The notes under the pieces were generated by a model, which ran no database searches, was not told the DNA's origin, and worked only from the letters and a program-made list of their open reading frames with translations. Positions 9,955 through 22,228 of a stretch of 64,000 nt of DNA are shown one piece after another. This stretch comes from Synergistaceae bacterium (GTDB lineage: Bacteria > Synergistota > Synergistia > Synergistales > Aminobacteriaceae). The position numbers were made by a program, and so were the translations under genes. The stretch is from assembly GCA_017446055.1 (NCBI GenBank), contig JAFSRQ010000146.1:1-64000 (forward strand), given 5' to 3'. The first letter of the stretch is position 1. Each line of letters opens with the position of its first letter.

Positions 9955-10758
9955 CTACTTTTCCGGCCGCAGGATTTCCTTTGCCCTGTCCCAGAAAGAG
10001 TCAAGCTCCTCAAGCGTGTAGTCGGAGATTGATTTGCCCTCAGACTGCGCAAGCTCCTCCATGATTCCGAAACGCCGCCTGAATTTCTCGCACACCATGT
10101 TCAATGCCGCGTCCGGGTCAACGTTGAGCCTCCGTGCAATGTTCACCGTCATGAAGAGGACATCACCGAGTTCTTCTGCTGTGTGTTCCGGGTCATTCTC
10201 ACTTGCCGCGTCCCTAAGCTCGCTGATTTCCTCATCAAGTTTGGCGAAAAGTGGAGCTACTTCACCCGCTGGCCAGTCAAAGCCGACATGCTTGACCTTG
10301 CCCTGAATCCTGTTGGCTTTGAGGAGAGGCGGCAGTCCGTCCGGGATTCCGGCAAGTATCGAGGTGCTTTCGTGCTTCTCTTTGCGTTCCTCAGCCTTTA
10401 TGCGCTCCCAGTTGCGGAGGACTTCATCGCTGTCGTCAGCCTTGACGTTCCCGAAAACGTGGGGGTGTCGGCGTATGAGCTTGTCGCAGATTCCCCGTAC
10501 AACGTCCTTCATGTCGAACGCTCCCAGTTCATGCGCGATTGATGCCACGAACACGACCTGAAGCAGCAAGTCCCCGGCTTCCTCTCGGATTGCGGCCATG
10601 TCGCGCTTGGTGATAGCGTCGGCCAGCTCGTAGGCTTCCTCAGTGATGGGTGTGCGGAGGGTGTCGAGGGTCTGCTTGCGGTCCCAGGGACAGCCGTCCG
10701 GGGCTCTCAGCCTCTCGATGATGTTCACGATTTCGTCAAAATAGTGTGAGCTGTCTAT
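9955..10758 (-). CDS. mazG: Nucleoside triphosphate pyrophosphohydrolase MazG
   Basis: The sequence is typical MazG. The N-terminal domain has RLRAPDGCPWDRKQTLDTL, ITEEAYELADAI and EEAGDLLLQVVF, where the E-E and E-x-x-D residues bind Mg2+. A second MazG-like domain follows with LDEEISELRDAA and EELGDVLFMTVNIARR. It removes pyrophosphate from (d)NTPs. The only ordinary start is GTG at 10728, five residues before the conserved core and with no Shine-Dalgarno. AGGAAGG at 10768-10774 lies 9 bases from an in-frame ATA at 10758 and 6 from ATC at 10761. Starting there adds DSSHYFDEI, which fits the family N-terminus. I therefore favour a non-canonical start, with GTG as the alternative. Confidence 0.92.
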   Translation of the reverse strand: MDSSHYFDEIVNIIERLRAPDGCPWDRKQTLDTLRTPITEEAYELADAITKRDMAAIREEAGDLLLQVVFVASIAHELGAFDMKDVVRGICDKLIRRHPHVFGNVKADDSDEVLRNWERIKAEERKEKHESTSILAGIPDGLPPLLKANRIQGKVKHVGFDWPAGEVAPLFAKLDEEISELRDAASENDPEHTAEELGDVLFMTVNIARRLNVDPDAALNMVCEKFRRRFGIMEELAQSEGKSISDYTLEELDSFWDRAKEILRPEK

Positions 10759-10801
10759 GATGGATTACCTTCCTGCGTATGAGATTTTGTGTGATGATGA
10801 G

Positions 10802-14016: not shown

Positions 14017-15280
14017 GTAAAACCTCCGTGGGCTTAAGTGCCATGAGATAACGTATAGCCGGAATGCTCCCGACAACCGTAACGAGGAACAGAATCACCG
14101 CCACAATAAGAATCACCATCCGCGCAATCTCAATGTATGACCCGAAGACCGTCTGCCCTATAATCTGAGCGAAGCCGATTCCCATGAAGTAGCCGACAAC
14201 GCCCCCGGCAAGCCCCGTAATCATGACCTCCGCGAGAACCAGAAGGACAATCTGCCAGTTGTGCGCGCCGAGAGCCTTCAACAGTCCCAATTCCTGACTC
14301 CGTTCGATTACGCTGGCTGTTATGAGGTTGGAGATAGCCAGAGCCGAGCCTATAGAGCTGAGAATCGTAATCAGAATCATCAAGAGTGTAGTCTTGTTGA
14401 GGATAGTCCCTTCTGACTCCGCGACCTGACGAACGGGTTTAGCGACTCCGTCCCTTATGACCTCCTGAATCTGGTGGCAGATCGCGCTGACATACGCGGT
14501 GCAGTACCACGTCTCATATTCATCGGGCGAGAGGCTGTGAGGGTCTTGCGCCGCCTTTCGGGCTAAATCGTTGTCGGGTGTCGTGAGCGCTGACACTTCT
14601 ATTGCTGAGACTCTGCCGCTGAGATTGAGCAGTCTTTGAGCCGCCGGAAGGGTCATGAGAATTTTGCTGTCAGAATTTCCGCCATCGTTGAAGATTCCTT
14701 TGACGGTGAATTTTTGGGACTGCCCGCCAGCTTTGAGGGTTATTGTGTCGCCCGCGTGAATGTTTTTCTGACTCGCCAGAAGATGACCGAGCATCACAGA
14801 ATCGTCCTCGTCCTCGTTCATCCATTCGCCCGAAATTTCCCACCAAGTGCGCAAGTTCTTCAAGCCCGTGTGAAGTTCCTCGCCAGTCGGAAGGGTAGTG
14901 TGTTTCTCCGGCCATGTCCCCATGACTGCGACTTCCGAGCCGTCAAAATCCGCTTTGCCCTCAAGAATCGGAGCGAAGTCAAGAATGTTGAAGCCCCAGA
15001 ATATGCTCTTGAGCTTTAACACGTCCTCCTCATGAAGAAATTTGTCGTTCACGCCCTGGCCTTCCAGTCCGTATAAATCGCTCATCAATGCCGCGTCCTT
15101 GTGCCTGACCGTGATATTAGCCCCGTAAACTTTAAGCTCGCGGTTGACCTTGTCGCCGACACCCAACATCACATTCATCATGGCCGTAGACAGCGACACC
15201 CCAAGCACAACGGTGAACGCAATCATGAGCATTTTCCCGCGCTGACGTATGAGCGTCTTCGTTATCATTCTCCAGAACAT
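14006..15280 (-). CDS. FtsX/MacB-type ABC permease of the iron cluster (first)
   Basis: This 424-residue permease has the same layout as its downstream neighbour. It has one N-terminal helix (KMLMIAFTVVLGVSLSTAMM), a large periplasmic domain, and an FtsX domain with three helices (TLLMILITILSSIGSALAIS, VLLVLAEVMITGLAGGVVGYF, and MVILIVAVILFLVTVVGSIP) ending IRYLMALKPTEVLHGK. The ATG at 15280 overlaps the preceding stop by one base (TAATG), and GAGG sits 8 bases upstream. The pair differ enough in sequence to be an old duplication. Confidence 0.88.
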   Translation of the reverse strand: MFWRMITKTLIRQRGKMLMIAFTVVLGVSLSTAMMNVMLGVGDKVNRELKVYGANITVRHKDAALMSDLYGLEGQGVNDKFLHEEDVLKLKSIFWGFNILDFAPILEGKADFDGSEVAVMGTWPEKHTTLPTGEELHTGLKNLRTWWEISGEWMNEDEDDSVMLGHLLASQKNIHAGDTITLKAGGQSQKFTVKGIFNDGGNSDSKILMTLPAAQRLLNLSGRVSAIEVSALTTPDNDLARKAAQDPHSLSPDEYETWYCTAYVSAICHQIQEVIRDGVAKPVRQVAESEGTILNKTTLLMILITILSSIGSALAISNLITASVIERSQELGLLKALGAHNWQIVLLVLAEVMITGLAGGVVGYFMGIGFAQIIGQTVFGSYIEIARMVILIVAVILFLVTVVGSIPAIRYLMALKPTEVLHGK

Positions 15281-16539
15281 TATTTGAACCTCTTTTCGTG
15301 TTCCTCAAGTGCCTTAACGTTGATGTATATCTTCCCCGCTCTCACCTCATACTCAAACGGGACGGGGTTACAGCCACCCTTGAAGCCGATTGTGTTCTTG
15401 TTCATGACCACGTCGCACCTTCTGCAAACGACCTCATCATCTCCGCGCTCGTAATACCCTGCAATCCCGCAGATGTCGCAAGCATCAAGCCCCACGCCGT
15501 AAGCAGTCCCCGCAGGTTTCTTGACGATGAGGAAGCGGACATCATAACCTCCCGGCGTAACATATGAGAACTTGTGCAGATGACCGTCCGAGACTTTAGC
15601 CAGCTCAACCGAAATCACCCCGTCCGAAATGTCGTAAGGCTCAGGCGGAATTTCAGCGGGCGGCTTTGTGTCGTACCAGTGGAGAACCGTAACGATAAAC
15701 GCGGCCATGAATCCCCAGGCGCAGAGGCTGTATGACCATCGGCGGCAATCCCTGAGACGTGCTTTTTCCTTGCGCAATAATGCTCTGTTGGGGTAAACTC
15801 TTGAGGTCTTCAGGTGAGTATAGATGACGAAAATTAGCATGGCCAGAGCAAGCCCTAACTGTGCGAACAAAAACGCATTGGGATTTTCGCCCCGCCAAAT
15901 CATGACATCGAACACCGATATTCCCATGAACGAGTCCGAAATCTTCAGCAGCTTCAACCTCTGCAACGCCGCCATTGAGGACGCTAAATATTCCGCCGCA
16001 AAAATCATCACCGACAATATCATGAACGTGTAGCCCTGCCCTGCCGTGTTCAATGACTGGTGGACTTTGTACGCGCTCAACGTCAGAAGAAGGCACACGC
16101 ATATTCCCAGAGTGAAGCCCAGAGCCCGCAGCATTGAGTTTGTGCTTATGCCAGCCTCGCCGAAGTACACAAATTCCCTCGTGAACTGCAAGACAGGCGG
16201 AACAAGATACGTCATCGCAACCATAACCAGAGCCGACAGCACCGAAATCCCAGCGAGCCACGTGAATTTTCCCCTGAAGAATGACGCAAGTATCACCGCA
16301 AGCAATGACAGCAGGCTTAATCCCGCGACAGTAACGACAAGCCAGCGGTTAATCCATATCATCATGATGTTCATTCCGCGCGGGTCATACATCCTCACAG
16401 CGAACATGCACACTCCCGCCGCAACTCCCAAGAATGACGCAATGACCGTGAATTTCCTGCGTGAGAAGCTCAGTATCACTCCGAGAATCACAGCGAACGC
16501 CGCAAGATGATCCGTAACCGCGACAAGATACTTAAGAAT
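15280..16539 (-). CDS. DUF2318 membrane protein with Cys motifs, FetMP-associated
   Basis: Eight or more membrane helices are followed by a C-terminal extracytoplasmic DUF2318 domain. That domain has DACDICGIAGYYERG, VVCRRCDVVMN and FKGGCNPVPFEY: two CxxC pairs plus one Cys, likely to bind metal or Fe-S. Homologues sit next to P19 and FTR1 and are thought to move electrons or metal for iron uptake. The first ordinary start, GTG at 16491, cuts into the first helix. The in-frame codons upstream give ILKYLVAVTDHLAAFA, a good N-terminus, and begin with ATT at 16539, 8 bases after GGAGG. Alternatively ATG AAA AAT at 16545 is the true start and the A5 run has one base too many. Confidence 0.82.
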   Translation of the reverse strand: MLKYLVAVTDHLAAFAVILGVILSFSRRKFTVIASFLGVAAGVCMFAVRMYDPRGMNIMMIWINRWLVVTVAGLSLLSLLAVILASFFRGKFTWLAGISVLSALVMVAMTYLVPPVLQFTREFVYFGEAGISTNSMLRALGFTLGICVCLLLTLSAYKVHQSLNTAGQGYTFMILSVMIFAAEYLASSMAALQRLKLLKISDSFMGISVFDVMIWRGENPNAFLFAQLGLALAMLIFVIYTHLKTSRVYPNRALLRKEKARLRDCRRWSYSLCAWGFMAAFIVTVLHWYDTKPPAEIPPEPYDISDGVISVELAKVSDGHLHKFSYVTPGGYDVRFLIVKKPAGTAYGVGLDACDICGIAGYYERGDDEVVCRRCDVVMNKNTIGFKGGCNPVPFEYEVRAGKIYINVKALEEHEKRFK

Positions 16540-16562
16540 TTTTCATCCCTCCCATAACAAAA

Positions 16563-18836: not shown

Positions 18837-19823
18837 CTACAGCATTACGGGTTCAGGGAGCGGGCTTCTTCCCTCAAGAGTGAGAGCGGCGTTTGTGCGC
18901 AGGTTCAGCATGTCTTCATGAAGAGTGAATGACGGCATATAGTCCCGGATAATGTCGAGACCGTGAGATTTCCCGCGTGCAATTCCTGAGAGGGCAAACA
19001 TTTTCGCGAGACGGTGATTTCTGATTGCCCGGCGGATTGTTCCGGGGTTGTCGGCAAAAACTTTCGGAGGGTTTGACGTGATGAATATATTTATGTGCGT
19101 GTCAGTGTTATAGTCAGCATGAAGAAGCGAGTTGATGAACAGTTCCCGGAAAGCCCCGGCGCATTTTGACGACAAGGGATGAATCAGTCTCGGCAGAATT
19201 TCAGTGAGAGAGTCCCAGATGTTGACGGCTGAAATCTCCGCATGTCCCCCGGCGTAATCCAGAACAGTGCGTACCCTCACAATATCCCCGAACATCAACG
19301 CCCCTGCCAGCGTCAGAAATTTTCCCGAATAAACTCCCGTCCTCCTCAGAAATTCATCGCGCGTGAACCTCCTCATGCCCTCATGAAGCCCCGTAACCTT
19401 TGCGTGAAACTGGCTGATTGATTTTTCGCTGATGGATATATTCTTGACGGGGTAATCATCTCTTGACGGTTCACGTGAATCCCCGGCCATGAGGGATTTC
19501 ACCCAAGCCCCGGAGATAACGTTCTGGCCTTCTATGCGCCTGTATACCCGGCCTTTGTGCGCAGCGGGCTTCTTGTTCCATGCCAGCGGAGGAATGTATA
19601 TTTTCCCGTCAGCAGTAACAGTATACGGAATCCCGGACGGTATCAGCCTCACAGGGTCAAAGCCCTCACACAGCATCATACCCCCGGAAGAATTTGCGAA
19701 AGCGCAGGCAGTCTCAGGGACTCGGAATAACTCATCCCTGCTGATAGTCTCAGTGTCATAATCCGGCAGAAATCCCCCGTTCAACGCCATGAATGATTGC
19801 TCCGTCCTCAGATTTTCCGACAT
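18837..19823 (-). CDS. AlbA_2/Schlafen-type putative transcriptional regulator (COG2865-like)
   Basis: This 328-residue protein has an N-terminal AlbA_2-like part (ETACAFANSSGGMMLCEGFD, IYIPPLAWNKKPAAHKGRVY) and a middle region (FLRRTGVYSGKFLTLAGALMFG). The C-terminal ATPase-like part has FRELFINSLLHADYNTD, VFADNPGTIR and RGKSHGLDI. This is the layout of COG2865 proteins, often annotated as RecG-like or transcriptional regulators. Their targets are mostly unknown. It is divergent from polA; the two share a short AT-rich space with TATAAT at 19826-19831, readable on both strands. Confidence 0.8.
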   Translation of the reverse strand: MSENLRTEQSFMALNGGFLPDYDTETISRDELFRVPETACAFANSSGGMMLCEGFDPVRLIPSGIPYTVTADGKIYIPPLAWNKKPAAHKGRVYRRIEGQNVISGAWVKSLMAGDSREPSRDDYPVKNISISEKSISQFHAKVTGLHEGMRRFTRDEFLRRTGVYSGKFLTLAGALMFGDIVRVRTVLDYAGGHAEISAVNIWDSLTEILPRLIHPLSSKCAGAFRELFINSLLHADYNTDTHINIFITSNPPKVFADNPGTIRRAIRNHRLAKMFALSGIARGKSHGLDIIRDYMPSFTLHEDMLNLRTNAALTLEGRSPLPEPVML

Positions 19824-19864
19824 ATTATAATTCTCGCATCACAATATACATTGGGGTGATTCAC

Positions 19865-22228
19865 ATTAAGACATTTCTTGTTGTTGACGGACACAGCCTC
19901 GCTCACAGGGGATTCCACGCAATGAGTACGAGACTCACCGCTCCTGACGGTACACCAACAGCAATGATTACAGCCTTCATGAACATGCTTTACCGTGTAC
20001 AGGATGAACTTATGCCTGACTGCACCATAGCTGTTTTTGACGCAAAGGGGAAAACTTTCAGGCATGAGGTTTACGGCGGGTACAAAGCCTCCCGTCCTCC
20101 CCTGTCTGATGACCTGCGAATCCAGATTCCTATATTGCAGGAACTCTTGAGCCTCTGCGGAATCAGAGTCGTAACACGTGAAGGCGTTGAAGCTGACGAC
20201 ACAGCAGCCTCAATCGTCAAGCTGATTCGGCGTGAGGGCAGTGAAGCTGTAGTGATTTCGTCGGACAAAGACCTGTTCCAGATTCTTGCGGACGGTGTCA
20301 GGATTATGCGCCCGGTGAAGAACGGTGTATCAGGCGCGGCAACCTACGATGTGCCAGCGTTCGTGAGGGAGTACGGATTCTCGCCGCTCTCTATGCCCGA
20401 CTACCTCGCTATTGTCGGCGATGCTTCCGACAACATCAAGGGCGTTCACGGAATAGGGGAAATCACAGCCGCCAAGATTCTCGCGAAGTTACCCACACTT
20501 GAAGCTATATATGCCTCACTGGACTCACTGCCCAAGTCATCACGACAGAAATTCGAGCAGGCCGGGCGGGACTCGGTGATATGGACTCGCGATAACCTCA
20601 CTATTTTGCGTGATAACCTCTTCGACGATGACCCCGGTTTCCTCGATGACTGTATCAACCACAGGACAAACTTTGAGGCCGCCGAGAAATTAGCGTTGAG
20701 GCTGGGACTTTCACGGGTGCTTGAGAGAATCGGCAGCGACAAGAAGCCATTGCCCCGCGAATTTTACCGCAAAGGAGATTTCCCCCCTCCCGAAGCCGAC
20801 ATAATCACTCAGGACTACAAGAACGAGCTGCGCGCTTCACCCGGAAAATTCCAGGATGCTCAAAGAGTCTGGGACTTGAGGACAGCGTACTACCTCCTTC
20901 ACCCTGACGAGGCCGCAAAGAAGCTGCCCGCGATAATTGAGACCGTGAACAGAAGCCCAGACCCCGCCGGGACTCTCGCAGAGTTAGCCGGAAGCCTTGA
21001 CGCTGAAATCAGGAAGTATGACGGACTTCACGATGTCATGGCCGGGCTTGACCTGCCGCTAATCCCCGTGCTGAATCAGGTGGAGGATCACGGAATCAGG
21101 ATTGACCCGGAGAAATTCGAGGCATTGCAGGCGGAACTGTCAGCAAGAGTCGCGGAGATTGAGACTCAGGTCATACGGTCAACAGGCTTCAGGGTAAACC
21201 TAAATTCCCCCGCTCAAGTCTCGTGGCTTCTTTTCGAGCAGCTGAAATTCCCCCCGTCAAAGAAGACAAAGAGCAAGACATCATACACCACAGATGCAGG
21301 AGTCCTTGAGAGACTCGCCTCAGAGCCGGGCGGAGAAATTCCCGGACTCATCCTCGAACACCGCGAAATCAGCAAAATGCTTGCGGGCTTCGTCATCCCA
21401 CTCCTGAAAGCGGCGGACAATGACAGCATAATTCACACAACCTTCGAGCCGGCCATGACAGGAACAGGAAGACTCAGCTCACGTGATCCCAATCTCCAGA
21501 ACATACCGGCCTTCGGGAAATGGGCGGACAAAATCAAGTCAGGATTAATCCCCGTCAACCCTGAGAATATTTTTGTTGCTGCTGACTACTCACAGATAGA
21601 GCTGCGGGTACTTGCTCACATGTCAGGCGAGGAGAGGCTGATTGAGGCTTTTGCTGACGGAAGAGACATACATACTGAGACGGCCTCGTGGGTATTCGGG
21701 GTAGACTCAGCGTTCGTTACGCCGGAGATGAGACGCGCCGCAAAGATGGTGAACTTCGGACTGATTTACGGCATGAGTTCATTCGGACTGTCTGAGAGGC
21801 TCGGTGTGAAACGCTCTGAGGCTGACGGGATTATGACACGATACTTTGACGCACTGCCGGGCATCAGGGGCTTCCTTGCCGGGCTGGTGAATGACGCGAA
21901 AAAGAGAGGGTACTCACGGACTCTCGCAGGAAGGATAAGGCCAGTCAATGAGATTCCCGCAAAAGGCCAGGCACTTGACCGCGCTCTGGTCAATTCACCG
22001 ATACAAGGCACTGCTGCTGACACTGCACGGCGGGCAATGATTCGCTTCTGGGAATCGGGCTGCGCTGAAATGCTGTTGCAGGTACACGACTCTATTGTGT
22101 GCGAATGCCCGGTGAGTCAGGCGGATGAAGTCTCAGAGAATCTCAGGCGGATAATGATTGAGTCGGGCGGCGAGATTTCACACCTTGAGGCGGAAACTAA
22201 GCAGGGAGGAACGCTTGCTGATGTGTAA
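19865..22228 (+). CDS. polA: DNA polymerase I
   Basis: The 5'-3' exonuclease domain comes first (KTFLVVDGHSLAHRGFHAM, EGVEADDTAAS, SSDKDLFQIL, GDASDNIKGVHGIGEITA). A short, degenerate 3'-5' exonuclease region without the acidic motifs follows. The polymerase domain has motif A (VAADYSQIELRVLAHMSGEE), motif B (RRAAKMVNFGLIYGMSSFG) and motif C (LLQVHDSIVCECP). Motif C has Ser where the family mostly has Glu. The length of about 788 residues is short for PolI. The family N-terminus begins at KTFLVVDG. The codon before it is ATT at 19865, six bases after GGGGTGA; the nearest ordinary start is GTG at 19856, which lies inside that Shine-Dalgarno. I give ATT as the best estimate. Confidence 0.93.
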   Translation: MKTFLVVDGHSLAHRGFHAMSTRLTAPDGTPTAMITAFMNMLYRVQDELMPDCTIAVFDAKGKTFRHEVYGGYKASRPPLSDDLRIQIPILQELLSLCGIRVVTREGVEADDTAASIVKLIRREGSEAVVISSDKDLFQILADGVRIMRPVKNGVSGAATYDVPAFVREYGFSPLSMPDYLAIVGDASDNIKGVHGIGEITAAKILAKLPTLEAIYASLDSLPKSSRQKFEQAGRDSVIWTRDNLTILRDNLFDDDPGFLDDCINHRTNFEAAEKLALRLGLSRVLERIGSDKKPLPREFYRKGDFPPPEADIITQDYKNELRASPGKFQDAQRVWDLRTAYYLLHPDEAAKKLPAIIETVNRSPDPAGTLAELAGSLDAEIRKYDGLHDVMAGLDLPLIPVLNQVEDHGIRIDPEKFEALQAELSARVAEIETQVIRSTGFRVNLNSPAQVSWLLFEQLKFPPSKKTKSKTSYTTDAGVLERLASEPGGEIPGLILEHREISKMLAGFVIPLLKAADNDSIIHTTFEPAMTGTGRLSSRDPNLQNIPAFGKWADKIKSGLIPVNPENIFVAADYSQIELRVLAHMSGEERLIEAFADGRDIHTETASWVFGVDSAFVTPEMRRAAKMVNFGLIYGMSSFGLSERLGVKRSEADGIMTRYFDALPGIRGFLAGLVNDAKKRGYSRTLAGRIRPVNEIPAKGQALDRALVNSPIQGTAADTARRAMIRFWESGCAEMLLQVHDSIVCECPVSQADEVSENLRRIMIESGGEISHLEAETKQGGTLADV

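Follow-up and report, generated by a model that had tools for sequence, protein, structure and literature searches.

The polA gene of this Synergistaceae bacterium, which encodes DNA polymerase I, probably starts at an AUU codon, where a strong Shine-Dalgarno sequence would hold a weak initiation event in place, and probably belongs to a small, conserved set of genes with weak starts. We put the probability of this reading at about 0.8. Comparison with related species indicates that the polA start codon is the AUU at 19865 of the window, that is, of the whole 64,000-nucleotide stretch of DNA that was analysed.

The polA start in the window and in related species

In the window, five bases separate GGGGTGA from ATT (19865-19867), from which codons for KTFLVVDGHS run on in the same frame. 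A preliminary description of this DNA had placed the polA start at this ATT, and the related species strongly support that placement. Its account of the site was also borne out, with GGGGTGA before ATT, KTFLVVDGHS directly after it and the GTG at 19856 lying within the Shine-Dalgarno sequence, as was its remark that this is the third start at AUU, AUA or AUC (hereafter AUH) within 10 kb, the others being those of mazG and of a gene for an FtrD-like protein. It was wrong only in taking GTG 19856 for the sole ordinary codon available, because the polA frame is open upstream as far as an ATG at 19793, which is also in frame. The features of the window that bear on these starts are collected in the table.

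Features of the window discussed in the text
Feature	Position	Strand	Remarks
polA, DNA polymerase I, 787 aa	19865..22228	+	read from ATT 19865-19867; identified by TIGR00593; AUH in relatives
Shine-Dalgarno sequence of polA, GGGGTGA	19853..19859	+	contains in-frame GTG 19856-19858; GAGGTGA in many relatives
TATAAT, likely -10 element of polA	19826..19831	+	kept near the start in relatives
ATG in frame upstream of polA	19793..19795	+	rejected as start; no Shine-Dalgarno sequence
Divergent ORF	18837..19823	-	no Pfam match; 5' end overlaps ATG 19793
mazG	9955..10761	-	start ATC 10761 or ATA 10758; AUH in relatives
Shine-Dalgarno sequence of mazG, GGAAGG	10768-10773	-	read by eye; in-frame TAA 10765-10767
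FtrD-like (DUF2318) membrane protein	15280..16539	-	start ATT 16539-16537; Pfam PF10080
Shine-Dalgarno sequence of FtrD-like gene, GGGAGGG	16547-16553	-	in-frame TGA 16543-16545, one codon ahead of ATT
tRNA gene with CAT anticodon	51965..52038	+	one of three; acceptor stem fully paired

The product read from ATT scores 637.2 bits against TIGR00593 (cut-off 600), which identifies it as DNA polymerase I, and 677.4 against NF004397, below the cut-off of 720 for that model. When it is aligned with the 5'-nuclease parts of Taq Pol I and chain 6vde, the matched stretch opens three and one residues past ATT, respectively. These solved chains have 13 (Taq) and 19 (6vde) residues ahead of the aligned stretch, so the N-terminus of the Pol I family is by itself insufficient to fix the start. 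No complete sigma-70 promoter emerged from a consensus scan of the upstream region around TATAAT. ATCAC (19838-19842), close to where the polA leader is expected to begin, could pair with the GTGAT at 19856-19860 of the Shine-Dalgarno region.

The window comes from a draft genome of 2.39 Mb that is 85% complete, and its genus is represented by 43 genomes in the collection, 42 of which contain the polA start region; all 42 were read. A leader of the GAGGTGA type precedes polA in 29 of these species, where the aligned start codon is ATT in 13, ATA in 12, ATC in one, GTG in two and ATG in one. In this group of gut bacteria, an AUH start is thus found in 26 of the 29 species that share the leader and in 26 of the 42 in the genus. 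The other 13 species have a different leader and show an ordinary codon at the start or close to it. They are scattered over a FastTree tree built from joined protein alignments rather than forming a single clade, so the gain and loss of AUH at polA cannot be ordered. Elsewhere in the order, polA was matched in 23 of the 24 genomes of other families that were searched, and in all eight that were read an ordinary codon stands either at the start or upstream of it. An ATT is also present at polA in JAFRSL010000068.1, a Synergistaceae metagenome bin from goat omasum that may be one of the 43 genomes. The TATAAT motif is kept as well: 27 of the 29 species that share the leader, the window's among them, carry it no more than 70 nt ahead of the start.

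In seven of the 26 AUH species, the stretch from the upstream stop codon to AUH contains neither ATG nor GTG nor TTG in frame. In six of these seven, one extra base lies between GTG and AUH and puts GTG out of frame. The distance from the Shine-Dalgarno register to AUH is 8 in 19 of the AUH species, 9 in six and 7 in one, and the six leaders with an out-of-frame GTG have a spacing of 9 rather than the usual 8. Of the 29 species, 21 have an in-frame GTG three codons before the start. AUH is present in 19 of these, and for them the placement of the start depends on the comparison with other species. Downstream, the first canonical codon comes 4 to 38 codons into polA (at least 19 in 24 of the 29 species), and a start there would cut into or lose the conserved VDGH motif or what comes after it.

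The Shine-Dalgarno sequences that accompany AUH at polA are strong, with a median of -14.4 against -7.8 in 507 ORFs with a shared ATG, and stronger than 90.7% of the latter, which are conserved, alignment-chosen ORFs and may include a few that are not true starts. The anti-Shine-Dalgarno sequence GGATCACCTCCTTT was found in one of the 43 genus genomes (G020), the remaining assemblies containing no match to the pattern for the 16S end. On the 29-species tree, the polA start codon underwent at least 12 changes, three of them between AUH and a canonical codon, and its third base shifts among T, A and C from species to species. One conserved internal isoleucine column of polA was tested in the same manner and gave 13 changes against the 12 at the start. 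Active avoidance of ATG at polA was not seen, the third base being G in 3 of 29 species, near the 15.5% at fourfold sites.

Three further gene families with AUH starts

For mazG, 42 genus genomes were matched and 30 loci fetched. In 26 of the 30, the eight codons ahead of the conserved HYFDE core include an AUH codon and no ATG, GTG or TTG; the remaining four loci have ATG (one) or TTG (three). Reading by eye, we found canonical codons farther upstream, ahead of the Shine-Dalgarno sequence, in five of the 26.

The FtrD-like gene, for which 42 genomes were again matched and 30 loci fetched, starts with ATT in 26, ATA in two and ATG in one, with an unreadable N in the last; AUH therefore accounts for 28 of the 29 readable loci. 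A stop codon lies no more than two codons upstream in 22 of these 28, which makes an upstream start impossible there. No canonical codon occurs back to the stop in 25 of the 28, and the other three have one 7 to 39 codons upstream. The Shine-Dalgarno sequence of this gene is slightly stronger than average, with a median of -10.9 that exceeds 62.1% of ATG ORFs.

A fourth case lies on the same contig (C96 of G000), 17 kb past the window (at about 80.7 kb; L172:16699-17691). This gene of the KpsF/GutQ family scores 296.6 bits against TIGR00393 (cut-off 203.7) and falls under the KdsD and GutQ equivalog cut-offs. It starts with ATC, and a canonical codon upstream is absent. The starts in three of four species are ATC, ATA and ATA, and the fourth species has another arrangement. 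One contig of 137 kb thus carries four AUH genes: polA, mazG, the FtrD-like gene and the KpsF/GutQ-family gene.

Start codons, IF3 and tRNAs across the genus

The preliminary description had raised the possibility of relaxed initiation throughout the genome, or of altered discrimination by IF3, and had singled out infC for inspection. Neither proposal was supported. We sampled 1.82 Mb from eight species of the genus, the window included, in stretches picked partly around polA, so that the sample favours finding polA. Among 696 testable conserved ORFs, a canonical codon is accompanied by a Shine-Dalgarno sequence in 616 and by a weak one in 53, and 27 have none. Of the other 80 ORFs, 21 have AUH with a strong Shine-Dalgarno sequence; seven control groups, each made up of three codons, gave counts of 11 to 20. 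By eye, the convincing cases among those 21 are polA (four), the FtrD-like gene (three) and the KpsF/GutQ-family gene (one). The test undercounts, having missed polA in G000 and G004, the FtrD-like gene in G005 and G031 and the KpsF/GutQ-family gene in G000 and G010, and the mazG of G000 is absent from the 696. Reading by eye gave 14 AUH cases among the 696 (2%), from three families. The rate of AUH starts in this genus may be somewhat above the few per genome known elsewhere, yet it is far from general.

Other approaches to the same question were less sharp. After filtering, the controls taken from two other families were down to 32 and 11 ORFs. Scanning for forced sites turned up few real AUH cases. 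None of 172 ORFs in control G044 gave an AUH site; the scan was uninformative in the high-G+C control G049, where five of its 433 sites were AUH. A tally of all 64 codons anchored on the Shine-Dalgarno sequence, and two versions anchored on orthologues, were noisy because one Shine-Dalgarno sequence can serve two or three codons and because conserved leaders align between close species; one of the orthologue-anchored tallies, noisy as it was, put AUH at or near expectation. Comparing orthologues column by column, we found an all-canonical column in 190 of 266 groups, and the flagged rest were, by eye, mostly misaligned or truncated. A screen for ORFs in which no canonical codon precedes the conserved core picked up mostly conserved leaders. 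A selector based on coding change, which placed about one fifth of its sites on ATG, gave an excess of AUH in G011 (30 against 11.2). We rejected this excess, as only two of the sites are without a nearby canonical codon and both are well inside an ORF.

Several individual genes came up in the course of the survey. At pnp in G005 and uppS in G031, ATT and then TTG follow a strong Shine-Dalgarno sequence, and one relative has TTG or ATG; both starts are ambiguous. The start of serC is ambiguous too, with AUH or another codon followed by TTG. In one species, a DUF1015 gene (PF06245; contig C7 of G010, L188:8019-9206) has an apparent ATA start.

The IF3 of the genome aligns normally with solved IF3s, over nearly its whole length. 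Its gene, infC, starts with TTG in all 30 fetched genus loci (39 genomes matched), mostly behind GGAGGAGG, so AUH-based autoregulation of IF3 is absent in those loci. The initiator tRNA also looks ordinary, with three G-C pairs in the anticodon stem and an unpaired 1-72 position; it is encoded on contig C33, the CAT-anticodon tRNA of the window not being the initiator because of its fully paired acceptor stem. G000 gave 41 tRNA matches, and 41 distinct tRNA sequences were typed. A second initiator-like tRNA was looked for among these and rejected, since in this 85% complete genome the GGG...CCC anticodon stem is present only in the CAT initiator. tRNA-Ile(GAT) is missing from the list for the same 85% complete assembly. 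ARAGORN also reported in G000 an unusually long tRNA-Gly(gcc) of 95 bases (L285 39-133) and a tRNA-Leu with anticodon aag (L287 47-136).

Readings of the polA start and their significance

Two of the other readings that we considered would move the polA start upstream. If translation began at GTG 19856, inside the Shine-Dalgarno sequence, ATT would be an internal isoleucine codon; 21 of the 29 species do have the GTG in the polA frame, three codons ahead of the aligned start, and the swapping of ATT, ATA and ATC with little ATG resembles the behaviour of a sense isoleucine codon (13 against 12 changes). However, seven AUH species that have no other canonical codon either lack this GTG or carry it in another frame, we saw by eye no Shine-Dalgarno sequence ahead of GTG 19856, and GTGAT is accounted for by its pairing with the 16S end GGATCACCTCC. 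AUH starts also occur at the FtrD-like gene where an upstream start is impossible, and we consider initiation at this GTG improbable. Translation from ATG 19793 has in its favour a canonical codon in the right frame, but that ATG is within the divergent ORF, lacks a Shine-Dalgarno sequence and is upstream of TATAAT, and many relatives have an in-frame stop nearer to the start than this ATG is, which together make it highly improbable.

The other two readings concern the AUH codons as a class. Start-codon discrimination might be relaxed genome-wide, through an altered IF3 or initiator tRNA, with polA being one of many AUH genes. The presence of four such genes on a single 137 kb contig would fit, as would the 14 of 696 sampled ORFs and the drift of the third base among T, A and C. 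However, those 14 ORFs stem from only three families, 616 of the 696 use a canonical codon with a Shine-Dalgarno sequence, the AUH count of 21 among 80 has controls of 11 to 20 beside it, and the forced-site scan found few real cases. With an ordinary-looking IF3 and initiator tRNA, and infC starting with TTG in 30 of 30 loci, we regard general relaxation as quite improbable. Nor do we give any real credence to the idea that the AUH codons are ATG codons garbled by sequencing or assembly. The genomes are drafts in many contigs and JAFRSL010000068.1 is a metagenome bin, but AUH recurs in 26 species at polA, 28 loci at the FtrD-like gene and 26 at mazG, with differing third bases, and the ATT of polA recurs in JAFRSL010000068.1, a public record that may itself belong to the same set of genomes.

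The best reading is therefore a small conserved set of weak-start genes and not a loose reading of start codons. polA itself combines the lack of a usable canonical codon (in 7 of 26 AUH species) with a strong Shine-Dalgarno sequence and conservation, and the mazG, FtrD-like and KpsF/GutQ-family genes, which start as polA does, make up the rest of the set.

How such a start might work can be outlined. The Shine-Dalgarno sequence ending five bases before AUU 19865 would hold the 30S subunit in place, and the ordinary initiator fMet-tRNA, presumably the one used, would pair imperfectly with AUU because of a mismatch at the third position. This mismatched pairing would make initiation at polA inefficient. 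The retention across many species of AUU, AUA or AUC together with an unusually strong Shine-Dalgarno sequence would then keep Pol I low, and perhaps sensitive to IF3; mazG, the FtrD-like gene and the KpsF/GutQ-family gene would initiate in the same manner. We infer that selection for low output may have favoured a weak start that keeps Pol I scarce and responsive to IF3.

Starts of this kind have precedents. In the excerpts of PMC13009471 available, Staphylococcus aureus ccpN (AUA), cvfC1 (AUU) and citZ (AUA) are given non-canonical starts, and AUU or AUA with an extended Shine-Dalgarno sequence yields about 10% of the output of AUG, or up to 30% for ccpN. As described there, ccpN and cvfC1 resemble Synergistaceae polA in having an AUU or AUA start, a strong extended Shine-Dalgarno sequence and conservation in relatives. 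However, initiation in S. aureus was mapped by Ribo-Ret and output was measured, whereas the Synergistaceae genes are known from sequence, and the gene sets differ (ccpN, cvfC1 and citZ against polA, mazG, the FtrD-like gene and the KpsF/GutQ-family gene). In Escherichia coli, Binns and Masters are said to have found in 2002 that the AUU start of pcnB limits its translation. Like polA, pcnB encodes a nucleic-acid enzyme whose AUU start would keep it scarce; pcnB is a single gene studied in the laboratory, whereas polA is a polymerase gene followed across many species of one genus through their genomes.

The excerpts of PMC5472188 describe infC, the gene for IF3, as starting at AUU or AUC with autoregulation, and Streptomyces sigR as starting at GTC, with repression by IF3 shown experimentally. 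The AUH of polA is, like that of infC, of the kind that IF3 discriminates against, although in the present genus infC itself has TTG. sigR is like polA in having a conserved non-canonical start outside infC that automatic annotation easily misses; its codon is GTC and its IF3 repression experimental, whereas polA has AUH and would be IF3-sensitive only by extension. Gene callers generally accept only ATG, GTG and TTG, according to the same excerpts, so the N-termini of polA, mazG and the FtrD-like protein would come out wrong or missing in these species. Among the matches listed from open-licence literature on AUU or other non-AUG starts of polA or on start codons in Synergistetes, none dealt with an AUH start at polA.

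We conclude that polA clearly adds a new example to a known, though rare, kind of start-codon trick. It is conceivable, though doubtful, that polA, mazG, the KpsF/GutQ-family isomerase gene and the FtrD-like gene form a set tuned by IF3 that follows the ratio of IF3 to ribosomes, with infC, through its UUG, outside that control; if so, DNA repair synthesis, nucleotide clean-up and envelope synthesis would respond to that ratio. If weak starts do limit output, these species would be using the start codon, in a conserved manner, to keep Pol I scarce. The AUH starts on polA and its companions also stand apart from the textbook case, the autoregulation of IF3.
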